NCBI RefSeq assembly: GCF_017357865.1
Contig: NZ_CP060096.1
Span: 930,001 to 994,000, forward strand
Direction: 5' to 3'
DNA length: 64,000 nt
DNA from: Aceticella autotrophica
GTDB taxonomy: Bacteria > Bacillota > Thermoanaerobacteria > Thermoanaerobacterales > Thermoanaerobacteraceae
Part shown: positions 34,532-49,971 of the stretch, piece by piece
How positions within the stretch are numbered: the stretch's first letter is position 1
Layout of the letters: every line of letters begins with the position of its first letter
Program-made: the position numbers and the translations under genes
Notes under the pieces: generated by a model
The model's database searches: none
What the model was told of the DNA's origin: nothing
Seen by the model: only the letters and a program-made list of their open reading frames with translations

Positions 34532-36373
34532 GTGTTAGAGGAAAAACTGAAATTATTACCGGAAAAACCCGGTGTTTATATAATGAAGGATGAAAGCGGC
34601 AAAGTAATTTATGTAGGTAAGGCAATATTATTAAGAAACAGGGTTAGACAATATTTCCAGAATCAATCAAATCATCCTATAAAAGTAAGAATAATGGTTA
34701 ATCATGTAGCAGACTTTGAATATATAGTAACAGATACTGAACTTGAAGCTTTGATATTAGAATGTAATCTTATTAAAAAATATAGACCTAAATATAATAT
34801 ACTCTTAAAAGATGATAAAAATTATCCCTATATTAAAATAACCATTAAAGAACAGTATCCTCGAATATTATTTACGAGGAGGGTAGAACTTGATGGTAAC
34901 AGATATTTCGGACCATATAGCAGTGCCTTTGCTGTCAGAGAAACAATTAAACTGTTAAGGCAGATATTTCCTTTAAGGTCTTGTAATCGGAATGTTGAAA
35001 CGGATATGGGTAAATACAGGGAATGTTTATATTATCATATAGGTTTGTGTTCTGCTCCATGTACAGGAAAAATTTCAAAGGAGAATTATAAGGTACTTGC
35101 GGATGAAGTTATAATGTTCTTGGAAGGAAAACATGACTGGCTTTTAAAAAAATTAAAAGAAGAGATGTTGAAAGCATCAGAAAATTTAGAATTTGAAAAA
35201 GCTGCAAAGTTACGCAATCAAATATTTGCTATAGACAAGATTTCTGAAAAACAAAAGATTGTTTCATCATCAAGTGAAGATCAGGATGTGATTTCTATGG
35301 CAAAAGGTACTGATAACGCATGTATCCAGGTATTTTTTATCAGAAATGGCAAATTGAGCGGAAGAGAGCATTATTACATGAAAAACACCAATGAAATGAG
35401 ATGTGAAGATATTATTACATCATTTATAAAACAATTTTATGAAGGTAATCCCTGTGTGCCAAAAGAAATTATCACGGATGTTAATATGGAAGAAAGTAAT
35501 ATATTATCTGAATGGCTATCACAAAAGGCAGGTAATAAAGTTAATATAACTGTTCCTCAAAGAGGAAAAAAGAAAGAGCTTGTAAATATGGTTTATCAAA
35601 ATGCATTAGAGGAGCTGAAAAATAACTTAAATTATAGAACAGGCAAAGGTAGAAATGAGGCTGTTTTAGAACTTGCAGAACTTCTTGGCATGGATTATTT
35701 AAAAAGAATTGAGGCGTATGATATATCTAATATAAGAGGAGTAGATAATGTTGCATCTATGGTGGTTTTTATTGATGGAAAACCACATAAATCTTCTTAT
35801 CGTAAATTTAACATAAAAAGTATAAAAGGTCAGGATGATTATGGCAGCATAAGGGAAGTTTTAAACAGAAGGATTGCTCACGGTCTTGAAGAGCAAAAGC
35901 TTATAGATGATGGGCTTCTTGATAAAGAAAAAGCGAAATTTAATATTATGCCTGATTTAATACTTGTTGATGGTGGAATTGGTCATGTTAACGTAGTCAA
36001 AGCAGTTCTTAGGAATTTTGACTTATCAATACCTGTTTTTGGAATGGTTAAAGATTCAAAACATAGAACCAGAGGGTTAATTTCGTCAGATGGTGAGGTT
36101 AATATCCCTATGACAGGAAAGGCTTTTCATCTTGTTGCAAATGTGCAGGAAGAAGTCCATAGGTTTGCAATAAAGTTCCATAATATAAAGCAGAGTTCAC
36201 ATATTAAAACCCAGCTTATTGATATACCGGGAATAGGTCATAAGAGAGCAAAGGCTTTATTAAATGCCTTTAAAATGATAGAAGACATAAAAAAGGCAGA
36301 TATAGAGCAGTTAATGAAGGTTAAAGGAATGAATAAAAAAGCCGCACAGGCAGTATATGATTATTTCAGATAG
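34532..36373 (+). CDS. uvrC: Excinuclease ABC subunit C
   Basis: UvrC makes both incisions in nucleotide excision repair. The protein of about 613 residues has the GIY-YIG nuclease domain (PEKPGVYIMKD, VIYVGKA), the Cys-rich NVETDMGKYRECLYYHIGLCSAPC, the UVR domain EMLKASENLEFEKAAKLRNQI, an RNase H-like nuclease domain (RIEAYDISNIRG, PDLILVDGGIGH) and tandem C-terminal helix-hairpin-helix (IPGIGHKRAKALL, VKGMNKKAAQAVYDYF). GTG 34532 has AAAGGAAG upstream and yields a family-like N-terminus; an ORF from 34481 is longer but unlike the family. It lies apart from uvrAB, behind the SEDS/PBP pair. Confidence 0.96.
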   Translation: MLEEKLKLLPEKPGVYIMKDESGKVIYVGKAILLRNRVRQYFQNQSNHPIKVRIMVNHVADFEYIVTDTELEALILECNLIKKYRPKYNILLKDDKNYPYIKITIKEQYPRILFTRRVELDGNRYFGPYSSAFAVRETIKLLRQIFPLRSCNRNVETDMGKYRECLYYHIGLCSAPCTGKISKENYKVLADEVIMFLEGKHDWLLKKLKEEMLKASENLEFEKAAKLRNQIFAIDKISEKQKIVSSSSEDQDVISMAKGTDNACIQVFFIRNGKLSGREHYYMKNTNEMRCEDIITSFIKQFYEGNPCVPKEIITDVNMEESNILSEWLSQKAGNKVNITVPQRGKKKELVNMVYQNALEELKNNLNYRTGKGRNEAVLELAELLGMDYLKRIEAYDISNIRGVDNVASMVVFIDGKPHKSSYRKFNIKSIKGQDDYGSIREVLNRRIAHGLEEQKLIDDGLLDKEKAKFNIMPDLILVDGGIGHVNVVKAVLRNFDLSIPVFGMVKDSKHRTRGLISSDGEVNIPMTGKAFHLVANVQEEVHRFAIKFHNIKQSSHIKTQLIDIPGIGHKRAKALLNAFKMIEDIKKADIEQLMKVKGMNKKAAQAVYDYFR

Positions 36374-36375
36374 AT

Positions 36376-37356
36376 TTAAACATAACCCAATATCCCACGC
36401 ACAGAAACATCGCCGGACATTACTGCCTTTCGGCTGCCATCACCGATTTCAATAATGAGATTACCATCATTATCTATGTCTACCGCCTTGCCATTAAATT
36501 CATTTTTTCCTGATATTACTCTAACTTCACTGCCTATTGTGACAGAGTGTTTTAAACACGAGATTCTTATAGGTTCAAATCCTTCTTTTAAAAATATATA
36601 GTAATATTTTTCAAAATTATTAATAATTGAAGCGGTTAACTTTTTACGGTCAATTTTTTTACCTGTTTCTATAAACAAAGAAGTTGCCTTGTCTTTTAAA
36701 TCATCGGGAAATTTATTCATATTTACATTTAAACCAATACCTACAATAACATAATTTACCCTATCAAGTTCTGCATTCATTTCTGTTAATATACCACATA
36801 TTTTCTTACCATTTATTATTATATCATTTGGCCATTTTATACTTGCATTTAGTTCTATGGTTTCTATAATTGCATTGACTACTGAAACAGCTGCTACTTG
36901 GGTTAATTTAACAGAAGACTGTGGAGTTAATTCAGGTTTTAGAATAATAGACATCCATAAACCCTGACCTTTCTCGGAAACCCATTTCCTTCCAAGTCTG
37001 CCTCTGCCGGAGGTCTGTTCTTCAGAAACTACGATAGTACCATTTTCGGCTTTAGAAGCTATTTCTTTTGCATAATCATTAGTAGAAGATATACTTTCAA
37101 GATGAATATAGTTTTTCCCTATAAAATCTGTTTTTAAGAAGGGAGATATTTCTATGTAATCTATAATATCGGGCTCATTTATTAGCATGTAACCTGATTT
37201 ATGTTGAGATTCAATCATATAACCATTGTTTTTTAATTCATTGATATATTTCCAGACAGCCGTACGTGAGATATTTAGTTTATTACAAAGCTGTTGCCCT
37301 GAGACAAATTTATTTTTGTTTTCCTTTAGTATTTTAATTATATTCTCTTTTATCAA
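36376..37356 (-). CDS. birA: Bifunctional biotin-[acetyl-CoA-carboxylase] ligase / biotin operon repressor
   Basis: BirA biotinylates carrier proteins and can repress biotin genes. The 326-residue protein has an N-terminal winged helix (QQLCNKLNISRTAVWKYINELKNNGY) and the ligase domain with SSTNDYAKE near residue 90, GRGRLGRKWVSEKGQGLW near 117, and IKWPNDIIINGKKICGILTE near 168, followed by a C-terminal SH3-like cap. It starts at TTG with a GGAGTGATTT site. It is convergent with uvrC with only 2 bases between stops. It is the DNA-binding class, so it is probably both enzyme and regulator. Confidence 0.95.
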   Translation of the reverse strand: MIKENIIKILKENKNKFVSGQQLCNKLNISRTAVWKYINELKNNGYMIESQHKSGYMLINEPDIIDYIEISPFLKTDFIGKNYIHLESISSTNDYAKEIASKAENGTIVVSEEQTSGRGRLGRKWVSEKGQGLWMSIILKPELTPQSSVKLTQVAAVSVVNAIIETIELNASIKWPNDIIINGKKICGILTEMNAELDRVNYVIVGIGLNVNMNKFPDDLKDKATSLFIETGKKIDRKKLTASIINNFEKYYYIFLKEGFEPIRISCLKHSVTIGSEVRVISGKNEFNGKAVDIDNDGNLIIEIGDGSRKAVMSGDVSVRGILGYV

Positions 37357-37386
37357 TTAAATCACTCCATTATTTATATATAAACT

Positions 37387-37416
37387 ATTATACCTGTATT
37401 TATGTATAAATATCAA
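37387..37416 (-). promoter_or_regulatory. Sigma-A promoter of birA
   Basis: On the reverse strand TTGATA, 18 bases and a perfect TATAAT lie about 30 bases before the TTG start. Confidence 0.6.
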
Positions 37417-37590
37417 CCAATTAATTTAACTAATAATTTATGACCTTGTCTTATATTTTTTATAAAATGGCGATTTTAATTGATTTATTAATTTAATATA
37501 GAAAGATGGTTCACATATTTATGGGAGTTTAACAGTGTTATTATTTTAAGAAAAGTAGCGTAATTAGAAGCTATTGGGAGATATATTTTG

Positions 37591-37615
37591 AAAACATGAT
37601 AATTTGTTATGTTTT
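37591..37615. promoter_or_regulatory. Candidate Fur/Zur-family operator upstream of the metal ABC genes
   Basis: A 25-base imperfect palindrome reads AAAACATGATAA, T, TTGTTATGTTTT: 12-1-12, with two positions that pair only as G-T. The core ATGATAA-T-TTGTTAT resembles the 7-1-7 Fur-family pattern. It lies 25 bases before the -35 of the likely znuA-like promoter. The rest of 37357-37814 is AT-rich and geneless. An AT-rich hairpin followed by T runs is the alternative reading. Confidence 0.4.
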
Positions 37616-37640
37616 TGTTTTTTTTGCTCAAATATAAGAT

Positions 37641-37669
37641 TTGACTATTAGATATATTTAATTTAACAT
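37641..37669 (+). promoter_or_regulatory. Probable promoter of the metal ABC transporter locus
   Basis: TTGACT, 17 bases and TAACAT give a good -35 and a fair -10. The leader to the start codon would be about 140 bases, long enough for regulation, but no known riboswitch is visible in it. Confidence 0.55.
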
Positions 37670-37814
37670 ATGTTTAACAAAATATAATTTATCTTAAATA
37701 TTTCCAAAATCTCTAAGAAAAATATATCAAATTATGAGGGGAGATGAGTATTATTATAAAAAAAGGACATCATAAATAATGTTATATTGATTATTAAGAG
37801 GAGGTTAAATAAAA

Positions 37815-38672
37815 ATGTTCAAGAAATCGATTTTAACGGGATTAGCAGTGTTACTAATGTTTATAATGGTTTTTGCCGCAGCAGGATGTGGAGGAAGTAA
37901 AACATCGGATCAAGCCAAGAAATTAAAGGTCGTTACAACAAGTACGGATATAGAGGATATAGTCAAAGGTGTAGGCGGTGACAAGGTAGAAGTTGCAAAT
38001 ATTGTTCCTCCGGGAATGTGCCCTGGGCATTTTGATGTTAAGCCTCAAAGCATCCAAGTCCTAAGCGATGCCAGCTTATTTATATTACATAGCTGGGATG
38101 GGGATAAATTCAGCGATAAATTGATTGAATCCGTTGGAAACAAGAATTTGGTAAAGGTAGTTACAACTTCAGATGACGGTAAATATACCTTTATGGTTCC
38201 ACAGGCACGTATAAAGGGTATTGATGATGTAACCGCTGCACTTGTAAAGGTTGATTCGAAAAATGCAGATACATATAAAGCAAATGCCGAAAAATTAAAA
38301 AATGATACAAATAAGATAGCTCAGGAACAGAAAAAAAGATTGGAGGATGCCGGGGCAAGTAAAATAAAAGCCATTGTATTTGCATATCAAGTTGGATTTG
38401 CAAAATGGGCAGGCTTAGATATTGTAGGAACATATACCCCTGATATATCACCAAACAAGACAAAAGAATTAGTAGACTTAGGGCGTCAAAAAGGTGTAAC
38501 ATTGATAATTGATAATCTTCAAACAGAGAATAAGGCGATTGCATCTACCTTAGCAAAGGAGATTGGCGCGAAAGAAATTGTTCCGAGTAATTTTCCGGGT
38601 GGACTTCCCGGCACTAAAGGATGGAGTGATTCTTTTATAAAAAATGTTGATTTAATTATTCAAAATAAATAA
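37815..38672 (+). CDS. ZnuA/TroA-family metal ABC transporter binding lipoprotein, atypical site
   Basis: The 285-residue protein has a lipoprotein signal ending in FAAAGC and a cluster A-I metal-binding fold: VVTTSTDIEDIVKGVGGDKVEV, then a loop PPGMCPGHFDVKP, SDASLFILHSWDGD, and IVGTYTPDISPNKT. Typical zinc or manganese binders carry HxYEPTP at the loop and a later HxWLDP. Here the loop reads CPGHFDVKP, with an extra Cys, and the later motif is absent, so the metal or even a metal complex as ligand is uncertain. The AGAGGAGG site is strong. It heads a nine-gene forward cluster with cognate ATPase and permeases. Confidence 0.85.
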   Translation: MFKKSILTGLAVLLMFIMVFAAAGCGGSKTSDQAKKLKVVTTSTDIEDIVKGVGGDKVEVANIVPPGMCPGHFDVKPQSIQVLSDASLFILHSWDGDKFSDKLIESVGNKNLVKVVTTSDDGKYTFMVPQARIKGIDDVTAALVKVDSKNADTYKANAEKLKNDTNKIAQEQKKRLEDAGASKIKAIVFAYQVGFAKWAGLDIVGTYTPDISPNKTKELVDLGRQKGVTLIIDNLQTENKAIASTLAKEIGAKEIVPSNFPGGLPGTKGWSDSFIKNVDLIIQNK

Positions 38673-38684
38673 CGGAGGTAAAAA

Positions 38685-39476
38685 ATGATGGCTGAACCGA
38701 TCGTTTCTTTGAAGGATGTAGTCGTATCTTATCGTGAAGATATTGCGCTAAGAGGTGTTTCATTAAATATAAATGAAGGAGAGATGATGGGAATTGCCGG
38801 TCCTAATGGTTCCGGAAAGACTACAATCCTCACGGTGGTAAACGGTCTCGGTCGTTTGGAATATGGTGAAGCAAATGTACTGGGTTATCAGATGAAGGCG
38901 GGAAGGCGAGGCAGGTCTTTCCGCCTTAATTCAAGGATTGCTCAGATGAGAAAGATGATTGGATATGTACCACAAGGTGCCTTAATAGACCCCCGTGTTC
39001 CTGTAAACGTAAGAGAAGCTGTTATGATAGGACGTTACGGACTCATTGGGTTATTTAGGTATCCTGCCAAAACCGATTGGGAAAAAGTTGATCGGTTATT
39101 GGAAATGGTTGATATGTCGCATTTGTCAGACAGACCCTTCGGGCATCTTTCAGGCGGTGAACAGGAAAGGGTAGCCATTGCAAGGGCATTAGCTCAAGAA
39201 CCACGTATTCTCTTGTTGGATGAACCAACAACAGGGCTTGATTGGCGGTCACGAGTAGAAATACTTAATATAATTGAGCAGGTACATAAAGAAAGAAAAT
39301 TAACAACCCTCTTGGTAACACATGACCCCCAAGATACCTTTAATATATGCGATCGGGTTGTATTGCTTAAAAATGGTCTTATTGCGGCATTAGGTCCGCC
39401 TAAGGAGGTATTATCTGAAGGAAATTTAAAAGCTGTTTATGGGGACAGGCAGTCCGAAACGTCAAGGAGGTCATGA
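38685..39476 (+). CDS. Metal ABC transporter ATP-binding protein (ZnuC-like)
   Basis: The 263-residue ATPase has Walker A GPNGSGKTT near residue 40, Q-loop MIGYVPQGALIDPRVPVNVREAV, signature HLSGGEQERVAIARAL and Walker [14 protein letters not shown], with a switch His in LVTHDP. The insert RRGRSFRLNSRIAQM in the Q-loop region is basic. It lies between binding protein and permeases and overlaps the first permease by 4 bases (ATGA). GGAGGT precedes the double ATG start. Confidence 0.92.
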   Translation: MMAEPIVSLKDVVVSYREDIALRGVSLNINEGEMMGIAGPNGSGKTTILTVVNGLGRLEYGEANVLGYQMKAGRRGRSFRLNSRIAQMRKMIGYVPQGALIDPRVPVNVREAVMIGRYGLIGLFRYPAKTDWEKVDRLLEMVDMSHLSDRPFGHLSGGEQERVAIARALAQEPRILLLDEPTTGLDWRSRVEILNIIEQVHKERKLTTLLVTHDPQDTFNICDRVVLLKNGLIAALGPPKEVLSEGNLKAVYGDRQSETSRRS

Positions 39477-40333
39477 TGATGGGGGTATTTGCGTGTGAAT
39501 TTATGCAGCGTGCCTTACTGGTTGGATTTTTGGGGGGAGTTACCTGTTCTGTAATCGGGGTGCTTGTAATTGATATGAACCTGTCTTTTGTAGGTGTTTC
39601 TATTTCACATGCTGCTTTTGCAGGAGGTGTTATTGCTTATTTTATGTGTATAAATCCTTTGATTGGAGCATTAGTATTCAGTTTAATAGCTGCAGCAGCC
39701 ATCGGACCGATGACAGATAGGGGAGAATTTGGCTTAGATACCTCCCTTGGAATTATTTTTACGGTGATGATTGGCTTGGCCTTTCTTTTTATGGGAATTA
39801 TGTCGGAAACGGACAGAATCAAGGTTTTATATTTGATATGGGGCAGTATATTAACTGTTACTGATTTTGATTTAAAAACAATAATTGTTGCTTTTGTTTT
39901 AGTAGTTGGTCTTATCACCGTTTTTTATAAGGAAATACAGGCGGTAATCTTTAATCGTGAGATTGCTCTGTCGGTTGGATTACCGGCGTCTTGGATTTTT
40001 TACGGCATCCTGTTTTTGATAGGCATAACGGTAGCAGGAAATTTGCAGCCAATAGGGGGCTTATTGGTTTCCAGTCTTATCATTGTTCCGGCAGCAGCTG
40101 CTTATCAGCTAACATATAACTTAAAGCACCTTTTCTTGATATCTGCTGCATTTGGTGTTATTTCCTGTTGGTTGGGGTTGCTTCTTTCTTACTATTTTGC
40201 TCTTCCCAGTGGTGCATCAATTATTACCCTTTCTTGTTTGATATTTTTAATTGCCAATGCTTTTTCACCTAAACGTAAGGTTAAGCGTGTGAAATCCTTG
40301 AGAGAGGGGGACAACAGCTTTGGGAATGTTTAA
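39473..40333 (+). CDS. Metal ABC transporter permease, ABC-3 (ZnuB) family, copy 1
   Basis: This 286-residue protein has about eight TM helices. It begins CEFMQRALLVGFLGGVTCSVIGV and carries the ABC-3 coupling region GLPASWIFYGILFLIGITVAGNLQPIGGLLV near residue 170. It is clearly paralogous to the next gene and shares long identical stretches such as KEIQAV and NREIALSVGLPASWIFYGILFL. The pair may form a heterodimer. It ends in a basic tail (FSPKRKVKRVKSL). The start is the first of three ATGs after AAGGAGGTC. Confidence 0.9.
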   Translation: MMMGVFACEFMQRALLVGFLGGVTCSVIGVLVIDMNLSFVGVSISHAAFAGGVIAYFMCINPLIGALVFSLIAAAAIGPMTDRGEFGLDTSLGIIFTVMIGLAFLFMGIMSETDRIKVLYLIWGSILTVTDFDLKTIIVAFVLVVGLITVFYKEIQAVIFNREIALSVGLPASWIFYGILFLIGITVAGNLQPIGGLLVSSLIIVPAAAAYQLTYNLKHLFLISAAFGVISCWLGLLLSYYFALPSGASIITLSCLIFLIANAFSPKRKVKRVKSLREGDNSFGNV

Positions 40334-41159
40334 TTATGAATTTATGAGATATGCATTGATAGCTGGGTTTTTGGGAGGTGTTACCTGCTCTGTAATTGGC
40401 GTATTAGTAATAAGTATGCAATCTTCATTTATAGGGGTAGCTGTTGCACATGCTGCATTTGCAGGCAGTATAATTGCTTTATTTATAGGTATTAATCCCT
40501 TGATGGGTGCATTAATATTCAGCATATTATCGGCAGCAACTATCGGACCTATTTCCGACAGAGGAGAATTTAGTCCTGATACCCCTCTTGGAATAATATT
40601 TGCTATGATGCATGGGTTGGCTTTTCTATTTATGGGTATGATGTCAAGTTCAAAGACACAGGCTTTGGATTTGATGTGGGGAAATGCCTTAGCAATAAAT
40701 GAATTTGGTTTAAAAATCATTATAGTAGCTTTTGTTTTGGTGGTTGGGCTTATAATATTGTTCTATAAGGAAATACAGGCGGTAATGTTTAATCGCGAGA
40801 TTGCTCTTTCGGTAGGTTTGCCGGCATCTTGGATTTTTTACGGTATCTTGTTTTTGACGGGTATCACAGTGGCAGCAAATCTACAGTCAATAGGCGGCCT
40901 GCTTGTATGTACACTTATTATAACGCCGGCGGCAGCTGCTTATCAGTTAACATACAATTTGAAATATCTCTTTTTAATTGCTTCGGCATTTGGGGTATTT
41001 TCCTGTTGGGCAGGATTGATTCTCACATATTATATAAATCTTCCGAGCGGAGCAATAATTGTTCTTATCTCAAGTATGATATTCTTAATTGTAAATGCTT
41101 TTTCACCGCGAAAAAAGGTTAAGCGTGTAAAATCATTAAAGGATGTTTCGAAGCTTTAA
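40320..41159 (+). CDS. Metal ABC transporter permease, ABC-3 (ZnuB) family, copy 2
   Basis: A second 279-residue ABC-3 permease follows the first with a 14-base overlap if the TTG start is used (AGAGGGGGACA upstream; ATG 40326 is an alternative). It keeps MRYALIAGFLGGVTCSVIGV, the HAAFAG segment, the GLPASWIFYG coupling region and a basic end FSPRKKVKRVKSL. By eye the two copies agree over most of their length, which points to tandem duplication. Differences cluster in loops such as MSETDRIKVLYLIW versus MSSSKTQALDLMW. Confidence 0.9.
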   Translation: MGMFNYEFMRYALIAGFLGGVTCSVIGVLVISMQSSFIGVAVAHAAFAGSIIALFIGINPLMGALIFSILSAATIGPISDRGEFSPDTPLGIIFAMMHGLAFLFMGMMSSSKTQALDLMWGNALAINEFGLKIIIVAFVLVVGLIILFYKEIQAVMFNREIALSVGLPASWIFYGILFLTGITVAANLQSIGGLLVCTLIITPAAAAYQLTYNLKYLFLIASAFGVFSCWAGLILTYYINLPSGAIIVLISSMIFLIVNAFSPRKKVKRVKSLKDVSKL

Positions 41160-41214
41160 TTAAATGGAATAGCCATGTTTTTAAAATTTTAAAATTGAAG
41201 GGAGAATGATATTT

Positions 41215-42384
41215 ATGTGCATACCAATAAGTGTTGTAACCAAAGAGGCGGAAGGGGAAAATCTATATAATCAAGGGCTTTCGTATTATAAAGAAGGCAG
41301 TGCTTTTACACCGGAAGGAATAGATTCACTTAAAAAAGCGATTGCGATATTTAACAAGGTGATAGATGCAAATCATGGTTTTCCGGATGCTTATTATATG
41401 AGAGGTATTGCTTCTATTCAGTTTTTGCATTTTTATTCCCGCCCTTTTAATGAAGAACAGGAAAGGTTATTCAGAGAAGCATTAAAGGATTTTGAAAAAG
41501 TATTACAGCTGGATAAAGATTTTTATATTGCATATGCCGCAATGGGTAATACCTATGACAGATATGGCGACTTTGATGAGGCTGTAAAATATTATGATAA
41601 GGCATTGGAAAAGGCAGACGAAATAAAGGAAAAATGGGGTGAAGATGCTTTGGCAGCTATTTATTTTAGCAGGGGAAGGGCATATCACCGAACACTTAAA
41701 CACAGGTCTGTTCAGGATTATGAAAAGGCATATGAATATAATCCTCATTCTGATAGTGTATTAATGCATATCTCAACTGCATATCTTCAAGCAGGCAGAT
41801 GGGAGGAAGCCTATGATATGGCAAAAAAATCCGTCAAGGCAATTGAGGAAAAAGAAAGGAAAGCCTTATGGGATTATAGGGCATACCTTACAATTGCAAA
41901 ATGCCATATCAAATTCAAAAATTACAATGAATGTGTGGAAGATTTGAGAAGAGGATTAGAGATAGCACCTTTCAAAGACCCGGATATATTATTATCTATA
42001 GGGAAGGCTTATAAATTGATGGGAAATATGGAAAAAGCAGTTGAATATTTTAATGAAGCAATAAAGGCATGTGATGAATTGATTAAGCATCCAAATCCAT
42101 TGAAACCTGTTTATACCGTCTACAATACAAGAGGTCTTGTTTTGATGGAGATGGGTGATTATAAAAAAGCCATTGAAGATTTTGAGAGAACCGTAGAAAT
42201 TGCTCCTGAAAATTATCCCCATGCACATACACATTACAAAACAGATGGCTTGAAAAATCAAGGAATCGCATATACAAAAATGGGGGATAAGGATAAAGCC
42301 CAAGAATTATTCGCTGAGGCGCTTAATAAGGCAGAGAGACACGGTTTAGAATTTGCAAAGGATGAAATTAAGGAATGGATTTGA
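41215..42384 (+). CDS. Tetratricopeptide-repeat protein of the metal/radical SAM locus
   Basis: A soluble protein of about 389 residues is built mostly of TPR units, for example FDEAVKYYDKALEKADE, RWEEAYDMAKKSVKAI, NYNECVEDLRRGLEIAP, NMEKAVEYFNEAIKACDE, DYKKAIEDFERTVEIAP and DKDKAQELFAEALNKAE. There is no signal peptide. ATG 41215 is preferred over 41206, since AAGGGAG is then about 10 bases away. The radical SAM gene begins inside its last codons. TPR proteins act as scaffolds; here it may hold the modifying enzymes together. No specific function is known to me. Confidence 0.82.
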   Translation: MCIPISVVTKEAEGENLYNQGLSYYKEGSAFTPEGIDSLKKAIAIFNKVIDANHGFPDAYYMRGIASIQFLHFYSRPFNEEQERLFREALKDFEKVLQLDKDFYIAYAAMGNTYDRYGDFDEAVKYYDKALEKADEIKEKWGEDALAAIYFSRGRAYHRTLKHRSVQDYEKAYEYNPHSDSVLMHISTAYLQAGRWEEAYDMAKKSVKAIEEKERKALWDYRAYLTIAKCHIKFKNYNECVEDLRRGLEIAPFKDPDILLSIGKAYKLMGNMEKAVEYFNEAIKACDELIKHPNPLKPVYTVYNTRGLVLMEMGDYKKAIEDFERTVEIAPENYPHAHTHYKTDGLKNQGIAYTKMGDKDKAQELFAEALNKAERHGLEFAKDEIKEWI

Positions 42385-43220
42385 CACTGCAAATTGAACC
42401 TACAAGAATGTGTAATTTAGATTGTTCTATCTGCATGAGAAAAAATATTAAAAAACCAATAAACTCTTTTTTGACCTTTAATAATTTTAAAAAAATCTGT
42501 GACAATGCGGTTTTATCAAAAATGTTTCAATATATTGGTCTCCATGGCTGGGGGGAACCTTTATTAAACAAAGAACTTTTTAAGATGGTGGAGTATGCAG
42601 AAGATAAGGGGTTGGCTACAAATCTTACCACTAATGGAAGATTGATTAATGAAAGGTTTGAGGAAATATTCAAAAGCGGTTTACGAGAAATTGCTTTCGG
42701 AGTATATAATAAAAATTTACTGAGAGAGGTAGTGCCATCTATAAGAGAATTGATTAAAATAAGGAACCATCGGTGTTTAAAGATACCTAAGACTTACTTT
42801 GACATTACTATTTGTAAAGAAAGCCTTTCAGATATTCAGAATTTTATTGAAATTGCACAGGAACTTAGGATAGATGCTGTTATACTTCACCGTCTTTTCA
42901 ATGTTTATAAGGTAGATCCATCTGTTAAATATATTTCTCAAGAGGAAGAGAAAATGTTATTTGAGAAAGTAAAAGAAATAGGCAGGAAAAATGGTATGGA
43001 GATTTATTTGCCTGTGAGGCATAAATATCCCTGCAAGGTTGTTAAATACAGTATTTTTATTACTGTAGACGGGGATATTACCCCCTGTTGTTTTCTGCCG
43101 GAATATACACTGGGTAATATTTTTGAGATGGAATTAAGTGAGGTTTTTGCATCTGATGGTTACAAAAACTTTAAAAAAAGAATGCCTGATAATCAAATTT
43201 GCGGGAGGTGCAGATGGTAA
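42375..43220 (+). CDS. Radical SAM protein with C-terminal SPASM-like cysteines
   Basis: The 281-residue protein has the CxxxCxxC cluster motif CNLDCSIC near residue 13. It has GWGEPLLNKELF (a GGEPxL-like SAM motif) near residue 58 and TTNGRLINER near 86. A C-terminal set of cysteines follows: YPCKV, TPCCFLPEYTLGNI and a terminal CGRCRW. The end resembles a shortened SPASM/twitch domain that binds auxiliary Fe-S clusters in peptide- and cofactor-maturing enzymes. Overlap with the TPR gene and TAATG contact with the methyltransferase argue for one unit. An alternative TTG start at 42381 has better spacing from AAGGA. The substrate is unknown. Confidence 0.85.
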   Translation: MDLTLQIEPTRMCNLDCSICMRKNIKKPINSFLTFNNFKKICDNAVLSKMFQYIGLHGWGEPLLNKELFKMVEYAEDKGLATNLTTNGRLINERFEEIFKSGLREIAFGVYNKNLLREVVPSIRELIKIRNHRCLKIPKTYFDITICKESLSDIQNFIEIAQELRIDAVILHRLFNVYKVDPSVKYISQEEEKMLFEKVKEIGRKNGMEIYLPVRHKYPCKVVKYSIFITVDGDITPCCFLPEYTLGNIFEMELSEVFASDGYKNFKKRMPDNQICGRCRW

Positions 43221-44296
43221 TGGATAATGATATTTTTTTTAATGAACCTTCAATAAGTGCGGAACCACTGCGTAACTTTTTGAGTGATTGTTCAAGGAAA
43301 TTCAAGGAATTTTGTATTCTTGACGGAGCTCTTGATATAAAGTTGTTTGACCACTTAGATAATTTAAAAAGTGCTGATGAACTATCGAGGGAGATAGGAA
43401 CGGACTATGTGATTCTGAAAAATATATGTGAAATTTTGCTTAATCTCGGTTTTATAAAAAAAGAAGGCGAATCCTTTAAAAATACGGAATTAAGCAGCCT
43501 TTACTTAAAAAGTGATTCACTCTTGTATCAAAAAGAAGTATTAAAAAACATAAAAAATGGTTTTGAGCTATGGAGAAGATTAACCAATGTTTTGGAAAAT
43601 GGTCCTATAAAGGTGCTTGAAGAAGATTTTTTTCAAGACAACCTTATACATTCACTTGCATCAGAGATTTTATGCGGTGAGCTTCAAAAAACAGTTAAAA
43701 TCATTGCGGAGTTTCCTGAGTTCAAAAAGGCTGAAAAACTTCTTGACCTTGGAGGAGGGCATGGACTTTATTCTATTGCATTTACCAGATTGAATAAAAA
43801 TTTAAAGGCATATGTCTTTGATTTTCCTAATGTTATTAAGGATACGGAGGCTTATATCAGAAAATTTAAGGCGGAGAGGGTAAATGTTATTTCAGGCAAT
43901 CTTTTTAAAGATGATATAGGGAAGGGATATGATATTATACTTTTTTCTTATAATCCGGGCGGAAAAAATCCGAATCTTGTACCAAAGATATGCTCAAGCT
44001 TGAAAGAAGGGGGACTATTTATTACAAAACATGCTTTTTATCACAGAGAAGAAGGTTCGAGGGATTATCTTCTGGATGTGGAATGGAATCTTTCGGCTTT
44101 TGAAGGTGTACATAAAGGCAGTAAGATTTATAATTTTGCTGGAGACCTTAGCTATGAAGACTATCTGGATTTGCTTGAGAGGTATTTTTCGATTGAAAAA
44201 ATTGTAGAAGGTGATGAATTTGGGTCTTATTCATATCTTTCTAAATTTGGAGATACGTTAGGTTCTAAAATTATTATCGCCAAAAAGAAACCATGA
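43220..44296 (+). CDS. SAM-dependent O-methyltransferase-like protein
   Basis: The protein of about 358 residues has the two-domain build of small-molecule O-methyltransferases of the acetylserotonin MT/DmpM type. An N-terminal winged-helix dimerisation domain (ILDGALDIKLFDHLDNLKSADELSREIGTD and LLNLGFIKKEG) is followed by a Rossmann SAM domain with LLDLGGGHGLYSIAF near residue 180 and VFDFPNVIKDTE. The catalytic His of plant enzymes is not clearly placed. ATG 43220 overlaps the radical SAM stop as TAATG, with GGGAGGTG upstream. It probably methylates the product of the neighbouring enzyme, which is inference. Confidence 0.82.
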   Translation: MDNDIFFNEPSISAEPLRNFLSDCSRKFKEFCILDGALDIKLFDHLDNLKSADELSREIGTDYVILKNICEILLNLGFIKKEGESFKNTELSSLYLKSDSLLYQKEVLKNIKNGFELWRRLTNVLENGPIKVLEEDFFQDNLIHSLASEILCGELQKTVKIIAEFPEFKKAEKLLDLGGGHGLYSIAFTRLNKNLKAYVFDFPNVIKDTEAYIRKFKAERVNVISGNLFKDDIGKGYDIILFSYNPGGKNPNLVPKICSSLKEGGLFITKHAFYHREEGSRDYLLDVEWNLSAFEGVHKGSKIYNFAGDLSYEDYLDLLERYFSIEKIVEGDEFGSYSYLSKFGDTLGSKIIIAKKKP

Positions 44297-44343
44297 TACA
44301 AAGGATGGAAATAAATATGGTGAATATAGAATAGGATGTAATT

Positions 44344-44377
44344 TACAGGGTCAAAAATTCTTGTCCCTGTAGTTTTG
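44344..44377 (+). terminator. Possible terminator after the methyltransferase gene
   Basis: TACAGGG, a T:T mismatch and CAA pair with TTG and CCCTGTA across 6 bases, followed by only a short T run (AGTTTTG). It may lower expression of the ATPase gene downstream instead of ending the operon. Confidence 0.4.
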
Positions 44378-44410
44378 CGTATATTAGATATAGAAAAGGG
44401 GTTTTATTGT

Positions 44411-45472
44411 ATGATTAGAAAGGTATTTATCGGTTGCAATACAGCGGAAGGGTTTTATTCTTTTTTTGATTTTTTGACGAACCCAGAGGATGCAAATATA
44501 ATAATATTAAAGGGTGGACCGGGTCATGGTAAATCAACTTTTATAAGGTCAATAGGAGAAGAATTAATATCAAAGGGTTATGATATAGAGCTTCAATTTT
44601 GTTCTTTTGATTGTAATTCTCTGGATGCATTGGCACTACCTTCCCATAGATTTGCAATTGTTGCTACAACCGGTCACCATGTCAAAGACCCAAGGTATGC
44701 CGGCGTTGTTGAGGAGATAATAAATCTTGGAGAATACCTTTGCGTGGAAGGGGTTATTAATCATAAAAGAACAATTATAGAAATTAATAATGAGATTGAA
44801 GAAATTTTCAGAAGAACCTATAGGTATCTTAGTGCTGCAAAACTGATGAGAAAGAACATTGAGGATGTCAACTCAAGGCTGCAGGACTTTGCAAAGGTGA
44901 ATCTGGCGGCAAAGGATATACTTGCCAAAACACTCGAAAGAAGAGAAGTGGCGGATCATGTAGGTTATGAAAGACATCTTTTTGCCAGTTCTATAACCCC
45001 GGAGGGGTATTGTACATATATTGATACACTTATAAAGGGAAAAGAAATTTATAAAATTCTCGGAGATTGGGGAACCGGCAAAACAACTATCTTAAAAAAG
45101 ATTGGGGAAGATGCCAGAGCAAAAGGACTGGGAGTCGAATATTATCATCATCCTCTTGATGCCGAGAAGATTGAACATTTGATTATTCCAAAGTTAAATA
45201 CAGCGTTTATAACTACCGATGATATTTCAGATGAAAAATGCAGGGCTTCATACAATCTCAATGCTTATCTTAAGGATATAGAATATCTTGAAGAAAAAAA
45301 TGAAATGGAGGATCTTATAAATTCGGCTGTCGAAAATCTTAAAAAAGCGAGGAAATTGCATGAGAAGTTAGAAAATTATTATATTCCAAATATGGATTTT
45401 GAAGGAATTGACAAATGCCGTGAGAAAGTATTACAAAAAATATTAGAAAATAAATATGTTAAATCAAGATAG
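44411..45472 (+). CDS. Twin P-loop ATPase of unknown function
   Basis: The protein of about 353 residues has two separate Walker A motifs, GGPGHGKS at 35-42 and GDWGTGKT at 218-225. Each is followed by a similar arrangement (FCSFDCNSLDAL versus YHHPLDAEKIEHL, then RFAIVATTGHHVKD versus NTAFITTDDISD), so it looks like an internal duplication. Such twin-P-loop proteins occur in clostridia as uncharacterised ATPases. Cys and His residues after each strand could bind a metal. Start ATG 44411 follows AAAAGGGG. It lies with the radical SAM/metal locus, but a possible terminator separates it. Confidence 0.75.
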   Translation: MIRKVFIGCNTAEGFYSFFDFLTNPEDANIIILKGGPGHGKSTFIRSIGEELISKGYDIELQFCSFDCNSLDALALPSHRFAIVATTGHHVKDPRYAGVVEEIINLGEYLCVEGVINHKRTIIEINNEIEEIFRRTYRYLSAAKLMRKNIEDVNSRLQDFAKVNLAAKDILAKTLERREVADHVGYERHLFASSITPEGYCTYIDTLIKGKEIYKILGDWGTGKTTILKKIGEDARAKGLGVEYYHHPLDAEKIEHLIIPKLNTAFITTDDISDEKCRASYNLNAYLKDIEYLEEKNEMEDLINSAVENLKKARKLHEKLENYYIPNMDFEGIDKCREKVLQKILENKYVKSR

Positions 45473-45508
45473 AATTATGAATAATAATGGGGGGTTGAAA
45501 AATACGAA

Positions 45509-46216
45509 ATGGAGATAACAATTGTATATGATAATTTTCAAGGAAATTCAAATTTAAAATCCGCATGGGGGTTTTCATGTCTTGTCAAGACTAAAGAAAA
45601 AACAATTTTGTTCGATACCGGTGGGGATTCTGCTATTCTTTTGGAAAACATGAAGAAAATAGGATTTGATCCTGCTAAAATTGATTTAATCGTAATTTCT
45701 CATATGCATGATGACCATGTTGGAGGTTTATCCGGACTTTTGAAGATTAATCCTTTAATTGAACTTTATATACCATATTTATCAAATCAAGCTATTTACA
45801 AAGAACATAAAGGTAAAGTTGTTTGTGTCAAAGATTATAAAGAAATTACTCATAATATTTGTATTGTAGAAAAAGAAGATACATTATCTTTAGTTTTGAA
45901 TAAAAACGGCGATCTTATAATAATTGCTTCACGGGTACCTGAAAAGGTTATTGAAATGGTTAAAAGAATAAAAGAGATTAAAAAAGAAAATATTTCTCTT
46001 TTAATAGGTGCTTTCTGTCTTTTCAGAATGTCGAATCTCAAAAAAATAATTAATGTTTTTAAGGACCTTGGGGTTAAAAAAATTTCTGTTTGTCATTGCT
46101 GTGAAGATGCTTGTAAGATTTTGTTTCGGGAAATATATGAATCTGATTATATAGATGTTTGTTTAGGAAATGTAATATACATTAGAAATGGCATTTTTGT
46201 CGATAAGGCTCTATAG
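45509..46216 (+). CDS. Metallo-beta-lactamase-fold hydrolase
   Basis: The 235-residue protein has the metal motif HMHDDHVGG (HxHxDH) near residue 65, an N-terminal GFSCLVKTKEKTILFDTGGD strand pair and a late C-terminal strand CHCCEDAC in place of the usual GxxH. It most resembles the DHPS-like branch linked to archaeal pterin synthesis, by general layout only. The ATG has a GGGGGG tract about 14 bases away, an unusually long gap. It is the last chromosomal gene before the mobile block at 46.2-51.7 kb. Confidence 0.78.
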   Translation: MEITIVYDNFQGNSNLKSAWGFSCLVKTKEKTILFDTGGDSAILLENMKKIGFDPAKIDLIVISHMHDDHVGGLSGLLKINPLIELYIPYLSNQAIYKEHKGKVVCVKDYKEITHNICIVEKEDTLSLVLNKNGDLIIIASRVPEKVIEMVKRIKEIKKENISLLIGAFCLFRMSNLKKIINVFKDLGVKKISVCHCCEDACKILFREIYESDYIDVCLGNVIYIRNGIFVDKAL

Positions 46217-46563
46217 TATTCTGATCTTTGCATTATGTTAATCATCTATTAAACTGTCTATATGTAATAATTTTCCTTAAAAATGAAGGTTATAAATTAA
46301 CAATAAATAAAGAAAGATAAAACGTATACAAAAGAATAAACAAAAGATGTTAAACAGCAAGATACTACATCCTGAAAAATAGAGATTAAACAAGCTGACT
46401 TATCATAAAAAAGTATAAAGATTAAACAATCAATAAACATTGTTTTTACTCAAAAATTCACATTATACAATCTACAAGATCCTATTATTCTAAAATCATA
46501 GTCCTATTGTTTTAAGTATATTCATTTTTGGGTTTTACGCTTTTTGGGTAAATGCCATCTTGA
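46217..46563. other. AT-rich transposon flank with AGATTAAACA repeats
   Basis: No gene is seen. AGATTAAACA occurs exactly at 46383-46392 and 46419-46428 with looser copies nearby (GATGTTAAACAG, GAATAAACAAA), and once more at 48874-48883 between the transposon genes. Such short repeats could be transposase-binding sites near an end of the element. No clean terminal inverted repeat could be fixed by eye. Confidence 0.35.
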
Positions 46564-46680
46564 ATGTATCTTCTCCCCCGGATTGAACCGGGAGAAAGTT
46601 GTTTTATGGCACCAACCCTCTCCGAAGTGCTCAGGTTGCACCCCTGCATTTCCCTATCCCCTCCGGAGAAGAAGATACAC
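46564..46680 (-). ncRNA. Candidate structured RNA downstream of the transposon ATPase gene
   Basis: A GC-rich island of about 117 bases in AT-rich DNA can fold strongly on the reverse strand. TGTATCTTC..TCC closes with GGAGAAGATACA (12 bp, 3-base bulge). Inside are GGGGTGC-AACCTGA-GCACTTC and CCCGG-TTCAAT-CCGGG, the latter like a tRNA T arm. The GGAGAAG 3' strand can instead pair with TTTCTCC inside, so two folds compete. No open frame explains it. The G-U pairs favour RNA on the reverse strand. It could be a HEARO/omega-like RNA, a transposon-borne RNA or a DNA cruciform. Confidence 0.5.
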
Positions 46681-46692
46681 TCATACATACAA

Positions 46693-47496
46693 TTACTCTG
46701 TAATATTTATATCGCTTTGAGCTCTAAATACTAGCTCGCCATTTATAGTTTTTTGACTTTCTTTAGCTCCTAATATCATTGACATTTCTGCAAGTAAATT
46801 AATTTTTCTTAAATATCCATTTGTGCTTGAATATATTAATTCAATTGCGTCATCAGTAAATATTGTTTCATTGCAGTTTGCACATTTTAATCTGGATGTT
46901 ATATATTCTTTTGTTTCATCTTTGTTTAAACCCTTAAATGAATAATTTAAAACTATTCGCTGCCTTAATGCTTCATGTGCTTGTCTATTCAACTGTATAA
47001 TTAATTGTGTCTGTCCTGATAATATAAGTAATGCATAATTTTTTGTGTCCATGTCAAAATTAAATATAATGCGTAAATCATCAAGGATTGAGTTGCTTAT
47101 GAACTGAGCCTCATCAACGATGATAACGGGAGTTATGTTTTTTGAATGATAGCTTAATATTACATCCTGTATCTGGCGAAACATATCGCATTTTCTATGC
47201 TTCGGTATTAACCCTAAGCCGTCGGACAAATACTTGTAAAAATCCATAACTGTAAGCGTTGATATCGGTATGTATACAACCTTGTACATATTAGGATTTA
47301 AAGAATTTACAAAGCATTTTAGTGTATATGACTTACCAGATCCAGGATCTCCTGTTATTAGCCCAAATCCTTTTTTGTCTTTTAAAAATTCTAATCTGCT
47401 CATTGCTTGTATATAATCCTGTGATTTGTAGTGATATTTTACATCACATTCTTTAGAAAATGGATTAAAAGTTAATCCATAATATACATTGAACAT
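46693..47496 (-). CDS. ExeA/TniB-like AAA ATPase of the transposon
   Basis: The 267-residue protein begins MFNVYYGLTFNPFSKE, typical of ExeA-like transposition ATPases. It carries Walker A GDPGSGKS, Walker B VIIVDEAQF, sensor LLILSGQTQL and an arginine-rich RQRIVLNYSFKGL segment. Proteins of this sort (MuB, TnsC, TniB, IstB) select target DNA and activate the DDE transposase. The ATG at 47496 has AAGAAGGAAAA upstream; an upstream in-frame ATG at 47517 overlaps that site. It lies directly behind the transposase gene in one operon. Confidence 0.88.
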   Translation of the reverse strand: MFNVYYGLTFNPFSKECDVKYHYKSQDYIQAMSRLEFLKDKKGFGLITGDPGSGKSYTLKCFVNSLNPNMYKVVYIPISTLTVMDFYKYLSDGLGLIPKHRKCDMFRQIQDVILSYHSKNITPVIIVDEAQFISNSILDDLRIIFNFDMDTKNYALLILSGQTQLIIQLNRQAHEALRQRIVLNYSFKGLNKDETKEYITSRLKCANCNETIFTDDAIELIYSSTNGYLRKINLLAEMSMILGAKESQKTINGELVFRAQSDINITE

Positions 47497-47517
47497 TGTT
47501 TTTCCTTCTTTCTTCAT

Positions 47518-48756
47518 TTACAAAGAAAAGTCTATTTCTTTTCTTCTTATCTTAGAATTATCAATTTTGTTTACGGGATGTATTGTTTGCAAGAGTTTGC
47601 CGTCTTCACTAAAAATATATGCTTTATCAAGTGATTTTGGATAATATCGTATATTTACATAATCACCGATATACTGCATTGGCACTTCAAATTTGACTTT
47701 TTCTATTGATACTGTGGCATCTTTAATTACACGCCTTTTGACTCTATAGAGAAATATGTTATCAATCTCTTCTTTAGAATCTATGAATTTCATCGTGTCA
47801 GTATATTTAATGAATTTCTCTATGGGCTTCATATTTATTGATGAATGTACTGTTTGATGGTATATTCCTTCAATATATTTATTCAAGTTCTCATTCAATT
47901 CGTCTATGGAAGATATTTTCTGCCAATCAAATCCATACATCCATTGGTCTTTTAATGTTCTGAAAAACCTTTCAATTTTTCCTTTCGATTCTGGCGAATA
48001 CGGTTCAGCATAACATAAAGACGTTCCTAATGATGCACATATTAAATGCAATTGTTCGCTTTGGAATACCTTGCCGTTATCAACAAATAGTTTTTTAGGA
48101 ACACCTCTTTTTGAAACAGCTTTTTTGTATGCATCAATAAGTGATATGACATTATCTGTCTCATAAAATTCTGCATGTGTTATTAACCTTGATGAATCAT
48201 CCAGAAAAGCAATAAGGTATGTCTTAATCTTCTTGCCGTTAATAACTAAGTATGGACCCATAGATATATCAGATTGCCAGCAGTCATTAGGATACTCCAT
48301 TTCAAAAGCTCTCCTGTCTTTTGTATTCAATGCTGATGTAGATATTTTAGTTTTTCGAAGATATCTTTGGATTGTAGATAAGGATACCTTATCAAGGTCA
48401 ATAAACTTTTTAACTAAAAGTTCCTGATAGATTGACTTAGCTGATCTTCTTGGATTATCAACTTTTAGATTCTTAATATAGGCTTTAATGTCATCAGTTA
48501 AAACTCTTGAAGCACCTTTGTCGCATCTGCTTTTAGGATATAGACCTTCAAATCCATATTTTCTGTAACAGTAAAGCCATGTCTTAATTGTATTAGGAGA
48601 AAATTCTCTTTTACCTAACGAAGGCACATCATAAACCTTAGAAGTAATAACCTCCATATATTCTTTTGCTGTTTCCTGAGTGTAATTTTCATTGATAAGC
48701 GGTGCTATCAAAGAAAATTTAAAATAAGCAATTTTTTGTTTAACATCATTATCCAT
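47518..48756 (-). CDS. DDE transposase, Mu/TniA/IstA-like
   Basis: The 412-residue protein has an N-terminal helix-turn-helix region (residues 45-135) and an RNase H-like integrase core with catalytic Asp163 (CWQSDISMG), Asp226 (LFVDNGKVFQ) and Glu262 (SKGKIERFFR), a D-D-35-E spacing. A C-terminal Mu-type beta-barrel region and basic tail RRKEIDF follow. All three catalytic residues are kept and the frame is intact, so it may be active. It pairs with the AAA ATPase gene 20 bases downstream and the zinc-ribbon gene upstream. Confidence 0.9.
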   Translation of the reverse strand: MDNDVKQKIAYFKFSLIAPLINENYTQETAKEYMEVITSKVYDVPSLGKREFSPNTIKTWLYCYRKYGFEGLYPKSRCDKGASRVLTDDIKAYIKNLKVDNPRRSAKSIYQELLVKKFIDLDKVSLSTIQRYLRKTKISTSALNTKDRRAFEMEYPNDCWQSDISMGPYLVINGKKIKTYLIAFLDDSSRLITHAEFYETDNVISLIDAYKKAVSKRGVPKKLFVDNGKVFQSEQLHLICASLGTSLCYAEPYSPESKGKIERFFRTLKDQWMYGFDWQKISSIDELNENLNKYIEGIYHQTVHSSINMKPIEKFIKYTDTMKFIDSKEEIDNIFLYRVKRRVIKDATVSIEKVKFEVPMQYIGDYVNIRYYPKSLDKAYIFSEDGKLLQTIHPVNKIDNSKIRRKEIDFSL

Positions 48757-48986
48757 TCTAAAAGCCTCCTCAATTATCTTTGAAAGTATTATTAACTGGA
48801 TAATGATGGTGCATTCACAAATGTTATGTGGAGAAATAAAATGCGAATTAGATAAATTTACATAGACAAATTCAGATTAAACATTTTTAATCGAATTAAA
48901 ATAATTATACAGTCAAAAATAGCGATTAAATTATGATAAAATATGACTTTTGCAAAAAAGCAAAAAAAATCTACCAAGAATTAAGT

Positions 48987-49559
48987 CTAAACTTTTTTGA
49001 AAAAATGTACTTTCATCAAATCAAAATAGTGTAAATTAAACTTTACCTTTTCTTTTGTATATTTATAAATATTGCTTATCAAAGTTTTAGGTGATAAACT
49101 GTTCATTGTTTCAATGTATTCTTGAAAATTAGCAAAAAAGCTGTGAATATAATTCATAATCGAGAGAAATCTCATTTTGAAATAACTGATATTTTGCTGT
49201 TTCACAAAAGACAAATTAAACTCTTTAATGATCTCATCAGCAACATATGTAGTGCCATGTCCATCGATAAATATTTTTTTCAAGGAAGTTAGAATAACAG
49301 ATAAAGGATAGATGAAATATGGCACTAAAAAGTCCGGTATTAAAGCATGTGTTTTATGGCATACAGGACAAATAACTCTTGCTATGGTAATATCTATGCA
49401 ATTATTGTCGATAAAGACACCCCTGCAGTAATAGCCATGCCTGTGCAATTTACCGTTGTAATTGCAATTAGGGCATCCAGATGGTGTATCTATGTACAAA
49501 TATGATTTATTTTCGATATATTCATGTATATTTTTAATTGGAAAGGCTATAATTATCAT
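48987..49559 (-). CDS. Zinc-ribbon protein of the transposon (DUF6431-like)
   Basis: The 190-residue protein opens MIIIAFPIKNIHEY. It has a Cys4-type zinc ribbon CPNCNYNGKLHRHGYY ... CPVCHKTH, followed by LIPDFLVPYFIYPLSVIL and a basic helical half. This family sits next to DDE/ExeA transposases in Firmicute elements and probably binds the transposon ends or directs regulation; its job is not established. AAAGGT lies about 6 bases before the ATG. A gap of 230 bases with one AGATTAAACA copy separates it from the transposase gene. Confidence 0.7.
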   Translation of the reverse strand: MIIIAFPIKNIHEYIENKSYLYIDTPSGCPNCNYNGKLHRHGYYCRGVFIDNNCIDITIARVICPVCHKTHALIPDFLVPYFIYPLSVILTSLKKIFIDGHGTTYVADEIIKEFNLSFVKQQNISYFKMRFLSIMNYIHSFFANFQEYIETMNSLSPKTLISNIYKYTKEKVKFNLHYFDLMKVHFFKKV

Positions 49560-49574
49560 TGTGATACCTTTCTT

Positions 49575-49611
49575 GGGGAGGTAATTAATTTTACCGCCCC
49601 ATTATTTTTTT
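49575..49611 (+). terminator. Terminator-like hairpin at the transposon edge
   Basis: GGGGAGGTAA pairs with TTACCGCCCC (one A/G mismatch) and is followed by ATTATTTTTTTC. It has forward-strand terminator shape although no forward gene is upstream. It lies just before the zinc-ribbon gene, so it could block antisense transcription out of the element. Confidence 0.5.
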
Positions 49612-49830
49612 CTATAATTGTAGGCAAGATTAACCAATCTTATACATGGATATGAAAATTAATTAACTTTACATAATGGATAAGGTTAAATTATTTTGCT
49701 TTTTATATCATTTTTTATATTGAAATAATTTGCTGTATAACAAGTAGATTTAAGCAATTTCAGGTATTGTTTTTAAAAATATCCTTTAGTATTTTGACAC
49801 TATCTTATATCTTGTCTTATTTACCAGAAG

Positions 49831-49874
49831 ATAAGCATTCATCCTCGTCACTTGTGACGAGGATGAATGCTTAT
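49831..49874. repeat. Left-end hairpin of the tnpB element
   Basis: A 20-bp perfect inverted repeat with a CTTG loop lies six bases after the proposed left cleavage point. The apical part CCTCGTCA-CTTG-TGACGAGG is the same hairpin found at the right end. Subterminal hairpins are bound by the Y1 transposase in IS200/IS605 elements. Confidence 0.75.
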
Positions 49875-49971
49875 GAGTACTGAAATATTTTTGTTATTGA
49901 TTGATTTTTAAGAATATCAGGATATAATGATATTAGAAGAATAATGGTCAAAAATAAAGTGAGGTGATATT

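Follow-up and report, generated by a model that had tools for sequence, protein, structure and literature searches.

Why should a metal-type ABC importer share a row of genes with a radical S-adenosylmethionine (SAM) enzyme and a methyltransferase? The question is raised by nine genes of the acetogenic anaerobe Aceticella autotrophica (NZ_CP060096.1, positions 930,001-994,000, forward strand; this whole stretch of 64,000 nt is referred to as the window): a substrate-binding lipoprotein (SBP), an ATPase and two ABC-3 permeases, followed by a TPR protein, a radical SAM enzyme (rSAM), an O-methyltransferase-like enzyme (OMT), a twin P-loop NTPase and a metallo-β-lactamase (MBL)-fold hydrolase. 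This gene combination is conserved and undescribed, and the answer to which we give a roughly even chance is that it forms a horizontally acquired module, importing a scarce metal as an organic complex and making or remodelling a ligand or cofactor in the cell. The ABC-3 importer would take in metal complexed with an organic ligand instead of the bare ion, and the lipoprotein, its canonical ion site replaced, would bind the metal-organic complex; in the cytosol, rSAM and OMT would build the ligand or remodel the complex once imported, joined in the fuller orthologous clusters by further methyltransferases and a flavin/iron-sulfur redox pair, and the TPR protein, the NTPase and the MBL hydrolase would be accessory.

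A conserved cluster of importer and enzyme genes

All nine open reading frames (ORFs) lie on the + strand (37815-46216) where the preliminary description of this DNA put them, and its account of the first seven genes as tightly packed also held: each overlaps the next or lies less than 50 bp from it. The Pfam and NCBIfam matches comprised ZnuA, ABC_tran, ABC-3 (twice), TPR, Radical_SAM with a partial SPASM match, Dimerisation with Methyltransf_2, P-loop NTPase and Lactamase_B. The set fitted no curated family, in keeping with the earlier remark that it matches no known pathway, and literature searches found no paper describing it.

Full-length rSAM orthologs were present in 3 of the 398 genomes sampled from the phylum, Aceticella included; in 40 relatives the best other match scored 63 bits, vs. 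466 and 357 bits for the two orthologs. These belonged to Clostridia bacterium isolate 27 (G276) and Thermacetogenium sp. UBA4966 (G343), whose clusters kept the gene order at 51-75% identity: SBP-ATPase-permease-permease-(MT198)-TPR-rSAM-OMT-PyrK-FAD oxidoreductase-MT293, followed in G276 by NTPase-MBL (the G343 contig ends ahead of these two genes). Importer and enzymes therefore do not occur together only here, an outcome that had been named beforehand as fatal to the idea of one locus; the same cluster stood in two other Clostridia genera. The PyrK-like protein, the FAD oxidoreductase and the second methyltransferase of the orthologous clusters (L024, L025) sit where the window has the gap between the OMT and NTPase genes (Table 1). 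The PyrK-FAD oxidoreductase pair was rejected as a specific part of the cluster, since the pair is widespread in Clostridia, next to dacF, and this genome has a copy at another place. As assembled, the Thermacetogenium TPR gene (L025:3777-4100) has an in-frame TAG.

The cluster was probably acquired horizontally, because it is absent from relatives, its importer part has a higher G+C content (0.37-0.40 vs. about 0.33) and transposases are adjacent. Directly downstream (window 46693-51423) were transposase-type genes (an AAA helper, an rve/Mu-type integrase and DUF6431) and a 483-residue ORF with no Pfam match.

A scan of 84,980 genomes, which was pattern-based and whose count is therefore a lower bound, added three rSAM loci from Desulfobacterota (L027-L029; 48-54% identity). 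In each of them rSAM follows a secreted FmdE protein, and nearby lay a gene for a TonB receptor in L028, genes for a CooC-like ATPase and an energy-coupling factor (ECF) component in L027, and an ABC operon of the peptide/nickel type in L029. Among the 85 genomes of the G428 group, rSAM was found in G428 only. Radical SAM matches from Planctomycetes (27-31% identity, in polysaccharide clusters) were set aside as unrelated.

That the locus consists of two independent adjacent units, an ordinary importer of Zn, Mn or Fe and, unrelated to it, a pathway that acts on small molecules or modifies proteins, would agree with the many SBP-family genomes (most of them) that have the importer and MT198 only, and with the occurrence of rSAM without the SBP family in Desulfobacterota. 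This explanation is nevertheless improbable: the genes overlap and their order is constant in three genera, SBP is without the canonical ligands, and a leader RNA is common to ABC-3 operons and FmdE-rSAM operons (see below).

A binding protein with a non-canonical site

The SBP subfamily was discrete: 18 of the 398 genomes carried members at about 223 bits or more, and the next match scored 76. Most SBP loci outside the window's clade were composed of SBP, ATPase and one permease, together with the small SAM methyltransferase MT198. The AlphaFold model of SBP (mean pLDDT 87) showed the two lobes and long connecting helix of the ZnuA/MntC (cluster A-I) binding proteins, with YfeA and MntC as best PDB matches (TM 0.69-0.77; 0.76 for YfeA). 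ZnuA/MntC proteins bind metal at a site of four residues (His, His, His/Glu and Asp), which in YfeA we take to be H76, H141, E207 and D282. In a profile alignment the first three positions fell on Gly71 and two variable residues of SBP; D282 was outside the aligned part, and ungapped extension put it on Pro261. Judging from these alignments, the canonical metal ligands seem to be gone from SBP. The residues invariant in 17 members were others: C69-P-G-H72-F-D74, H92, Q192, F195, W198, D233-N-L-Q236 and S258-N-F-P-G262. Because these and not the canonical ligands are kept, the substrate is probably something other than a bare ion in the usual site. The name “ZnuABC-like”, given to the transporter earlier, agrees with its fold and families but is not supported in the sense of a bare-ion importer.

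The radical SAM enzyme

The three cysteines of the rSAM CxxxCxxC motif (C13, C17 and C20) and four auxiliary cysteines (C220, C238, C276 and C279) were invariant in six orthologs. Four are enough for one auxiliary cluster, and the full SPASM set, with two auxiliary clusters, was not found among the invariant cysteines; the “SPASM-like cysteines” of the preliminary description were in fact a single four-Cys site. BtrN, which has a single-cluster Twitch domain, was among the PDB sequence matches (residues 215-273). The structural model (pLDDT 76) matched SuiB, SkfB, MoaA and BtrN, among many SPASM/Twitch enzymes, and pinpointed no substrate. The best-scoring curated family, TIGR04317 (tungsten-cofactor oxidoreductase radical SAM maturase), reached 117 bits, far under its cutoff of 380.

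Since SuiB and SkfB, two maturases of ribosomally synthesized and post-translationally modified peptides (RiPPs), were among the best fold matches, rSAM might modify a peptide or the TPR protein, OMT methylate it and the importer take up the product. This is very unlikely. No candidate small ORF for a precursor was found between the cluster genes on the + strand, as had been noted before, the fold matches fail to distinguish substrates, and Twitch-type enzymes act on small molecules too.

Methyltransferases and metal genes of the related loci

The OMT family, searched in the 398 genomes, was linked to three unrelated importer classes. Its members were found inside ABC-3 operons, inside SBP5 (Nik/Opp-type) operons (G333, in the order SBP5-OMT-MT198; G348, with CobN; G253, G205 and G220) and inside FecCD operons (G253 and G049; broken in G165). 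The Aceticella genome itself has two SBP5-OMT-permease-permease-ATPase-ATPase-methyltransferase operons, 99.7% identical over 9.3 kb; a gene for a secreted FmdE-domain protein adjoins one of the copies. Other members had no importer nearby (G355, the second G220 copy, G112, G337 and G304). In a 16-row tree, the G333 SBP5 protein joined the clade of the window at 100/100, and the importer type switched several times.

Genes recurring around the related loci encoded FmdE, DUF4198, DUF364, CobN and CbiM. The Aceticella genome encodes CODH/ACS, hydrogenase maturation and the synthesis of molybdenum cofactor (Moco), and it therefore needs nickel, cobalt and tungsten or molybdenum, as is established for CODH/ACS, hydrogenases and enzymes with molybdenum or tungsten cofactor (Moco/Tuco). 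One DUF4198 protein is a secreted Ni2+ binder (Kd 18 nM; PMC12537917), and for DUF364 a role in producing metal chelators next to metal ABC transporters has been put forward (PMC2954201). MoaC was present in 14 of 15 genomes and HypA in 13 of 15, so that neither discriminates. Moco/Tuco riboswitches (RF01055) head DUF364-FecCD operons in Moorella-like genomes (the name Moorella, for family f17, being a reading from gene content), and in G266 and G165 such an operon precedes the ABC-3 operon, both having the same orientation. Molybdenum or tungsten was rejected as a demonstrated substrate, the ABC-3 operon having its own leader where a Moco riboswitch heads the nearby operon.

Three neighbouring genes or gene groups were recorded: nitrogenase-like component genes beside a FecCD importer, DUF4198, MT293 and OMT (L177:10014-13422; scores between NifE and BchB, under all cutoffs); a 602-residue protein with a radical SAM domain and a weak periplasmic-binding-protein match, between FecCD and ABC-3 operons (L130:11232-13037); and a different radical SAM protein, nearest to PapB-type maturases though scoring under cutoff and flanked by a CobN fragment and FmdE genes (L131:1405-2481).

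Such neighbours also bear on whether the locus matures a metal cofactor, the importer supplying the metal and the TPR, rSAM, OMT, NTPase and MBL proteins assembling or modifying a protein-bound or tetrapyrrole-type cofactor, with no ligand exported. In favour, the cluster shows no exporter, related loci have CobN/Mg-chelatase H proteins and nitrogenase-like reductase subunits beside them, and rSAM scored weakly to AhbD/NirJ-type enzymes, as did OMT to BchU. These family scores were, however, far under cutoffs, and the CobN and nitrogenase-like genes are missing from the window and from both orthologous clusters, which makes cofactor maturation of this kind unlikely, if still the strongest of the rivals.

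A leader RNA common to the related operons

Comparison of upstream regions yielded a common element: a first arm (CCANGRAGGY), an inner hairpin whose loop is often NGRA, a second arm complementary to the first, and a U-run. It was present at 5 of the 6 loci of the rSAM family and at most other importer operons, lying 144 bp (G276) and 109 bp (G343) before the SBP ORF. A covariance model was built from 13 sequences and run against two sets, one of 45 loci (757 kb) and one of 36 further loci (638 kb). The sole match above 25 bits in the 36-locus set was in L027, which was outside the training set, 69 bp before FmdE-rSAM. Further matches outside the training sequences were three in L028 (one preceding FmdE, another the TonB receptor), two in L029 (preceding FmdE-rSAM and an FmdE-like gene), those in L177, L178 and L181, and a second L135 element before an ABC-3 ATPase gene; weak ones (18-21 bits) precede CbiM and FmdE genes too (L135, L186). 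Genes of the ABC-3, SBP5, FecCD, TonB, FmdE and CbiM types, in two phyla, were those downstream of the element. A few matches of 24-33 bits did not precede such genes (L127, L138, L182 and the end of L024). Of the 25 elements listed, 22 had the first-arm motif and 20 the inner-loop motif.

In a 24-row alignment (A9), 93.9% of the cells of the terminator stem paired, and changes on both sides of the stem numbered 31 (shuffled mean 8.2). An alternative hairpin, in which the first arm pairs with the bases just after it, reached 88.2% and 26 such changes (shuffled mean 7.9). These counts lean upward because A9 was aligned to the terminator model and two of its rows are the reverse strand of other matches. 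Slid versions of the two structures paired in at most 61% and 57%, respectively. The alternative hairpin formed no part of the covariance model, and a 13-row alignment free of reverse-strand rows (A8) gave the same terminator picture. Because G-U pairs occur at several positions, we favour an RNA over a DNA palindrome, and the leader may be a transcription attenuator in which the terminator and the alternative hairpin are mutually exclusive. No Rfam 15 family reached its threshold at the leaders examined, and a permissive scan of one leader gave sub-threshold hairpin matches only.

Anaerobes of at least two phyla may share one undescribed regulon, for a single scarce metal or for an organic complex of it, under this new terminator/antiterminator switch, swapping importers (ABC-3, Nik/Opp-type, FecCD, TonB, CbiM) and having dedicated methyltransferases, FmdE and, in the fullest form found in the window's clade, rSAM; import would be coupled to synthesis or remodelling of a new metal-ligand class. 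We put this forward tentatively, the probability leaning against it.

Weighing the interpretation

Several lines of evidence support placing the cluster among metal-acquisition genes. The earlier idea, synthesis and import of a small metal ligand or else maturation of a metal cofactor, stays in the lead because the set is a conserved unit and related loci hold metal-uptake genes. The genomic associations are observed; the chemistry is inferred, from the metal-organic nature of the substrate and the choice of metal (nickel/cobalt or tungsten/molybdenum) to all of the catalysis.

Several points weigh against import of a metal-organic complex coupled to its synthesis or remodelling. The enzymes belong to generic families. 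The neighbours disagree on the metal: several Moorella loci have Moco riboswitches close by, yet the ABC-3 operon there has a leader RNA of its own. The window copy is short of four genes that its relatives have (MT198, PyrK, FAD oxidoreductase and MT293). The SBP family is absent from the three Desulfobacterota genomes with rSAM. Finally, the leader RNA is missing from the window copy (best score 14 bits in 36300-46800, filters off), and the link of the window to the regulon therefore rests on the G276 and G343 orthologs.

Gene layout and neighbouring features

The SBP and ATPase genes are 12 bp apart, the next two junctions overlap by 4 and 14 bp, and a 46-bp gap precedes the TPR gene, which overlaps rSAM by 10 bp; rSAM and OMT overlap by 4 bp if OMT starts at 43217, the likely ATG although the ORF opens at 43199. 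Comparison with its ortholog places the NTPase start most probably at 44411, 114 bp after OMT; an Rfam RAGATH-23 match in this gap at 44.3 kb was rejected (24 bits). The MBL hydrolase did not score as a GPMC-system hydrolase (NF038231, 22.6 bits vs. a curated cutoff of 360). Upstream of the cluster is a birA-like gene on the opposite strand, and elsewhere in the window is a lysine riboswitch (15311-15505, - strand, 121 bits).

Table 1. Coordinates of the cluster genes, of the two related Aceticella operons and of leader RNA elements. Positions without a locus label are those of the window.
Feature	Position	Strand	Remarks
AT-rich leader	37357..37814	+	5' of SBP gene
SBP, ZnuA/MntC fold, cluster A-I, predicted non-canonical ligand site	37815..38672	+	PF01297, 117 bits
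ABC transporter ATPase	38685..39476	+	PF00005, 111 bits
ABC-3 permease 1	39473..40333	+	PF00950, 184 bits
ABC-3 permease 2, paralogous second subunit	40320..41159	+	PF00950, 182 bits
TPR protein, conserved N-terminus M..C[VI]PISV	41206..42384	+	TPR families; orthologs 61 and 55%
rSAM, one auxiliary four-Cys (Twitch-type) site	42375..43220	+	PF04055, PF13186
OMT, SAM-dependent	43217..44296	+	Dimerisation and Methyltransf_2
OMT-NTPase gap	44297..44410		short ACAGGG/CCCTGT inverted repeat inside
Twin P-loop NTPase, PRK06851-like	44411..45472	+	NF005320, 306 bits, under cutoff of 556; ortholog 74%
MBL-fold hydrolase	45509..46216	+	PF00753; PDB matches 7dck and 3h3e (TM1679)
SBP5-OMT operon, copy L173	G000:C1:1575000-1591000		Aceticella genome
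SBP5-OMT operon, copy L174	G000:C1:1939000-1955000		Aceticella genome
Leader RNA, L024	13735-13794		among others
Leader RNA, L025	66-122		among others
Leader RNA, L027	229-283		among others
Leader RNA, L028	8241-8295, 11510-11565, 13980-14033		
Leader RNA, L029	4093-4145, 8949-9004		

Significance and comparison with known systems

Little is known of how acetogens and other strict anaerobes acquire the scarce metals of their core enzymes, and descriptions of anaerobic metallophores are few. The cluster supplies individual genes for deletion and a product to search for, and the related clusters hint at an unstudied route, the acquisition of metal bound to an organic partner. Since one covariance model finds the leader before importer, FmdE, TonB and CbiM genes, the regulon would be traceable across genomes and its trigger testable.

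Opine-metallophore systems (Cnt/staphylopine) have importer genes beside ligand-tailoring genes, an arrangement shared by the cluster, which differs in having no nicotianamine-synthase-like or opine dehydrogenase gene, other enzymes and another importer class. FpvCDEF of Pseudomonas is an ABC-3 importer involved in siderophore-iron handling; FpvC, an SBP of the same type, was among the PDB fold matches of the window SBP but binds metal ions in solved structures, and we know of no radical SAM or methyltransferase partner of this system. The cluster A-I importers ZnuABC, MntABC and YfeABCD resemble the window importer in SBP fold, ABC-3 permeases and lipoprotein anchor, whereas here the canonical ligands are replaced, tailoring enzymes stand in the operon and there are two permease genes. 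BtrN-type Twitch enzymes share with rSAM one auxiliary four-Cys site, a similar size and a sequence match in the C-terminal domain, at low overall similarity. The Moco/Tuco riboswitch is also a leader RNA near some related Moorella operons, but is a different RNA from the new leader. Finally, DUF364 operons with metal ABC transporters (PMC2954201) likewise place a proposed chelator-making enzyme beside heavy-metal importers; DUF364 itself is absent from the window cluster but present near the Moorella relatives.

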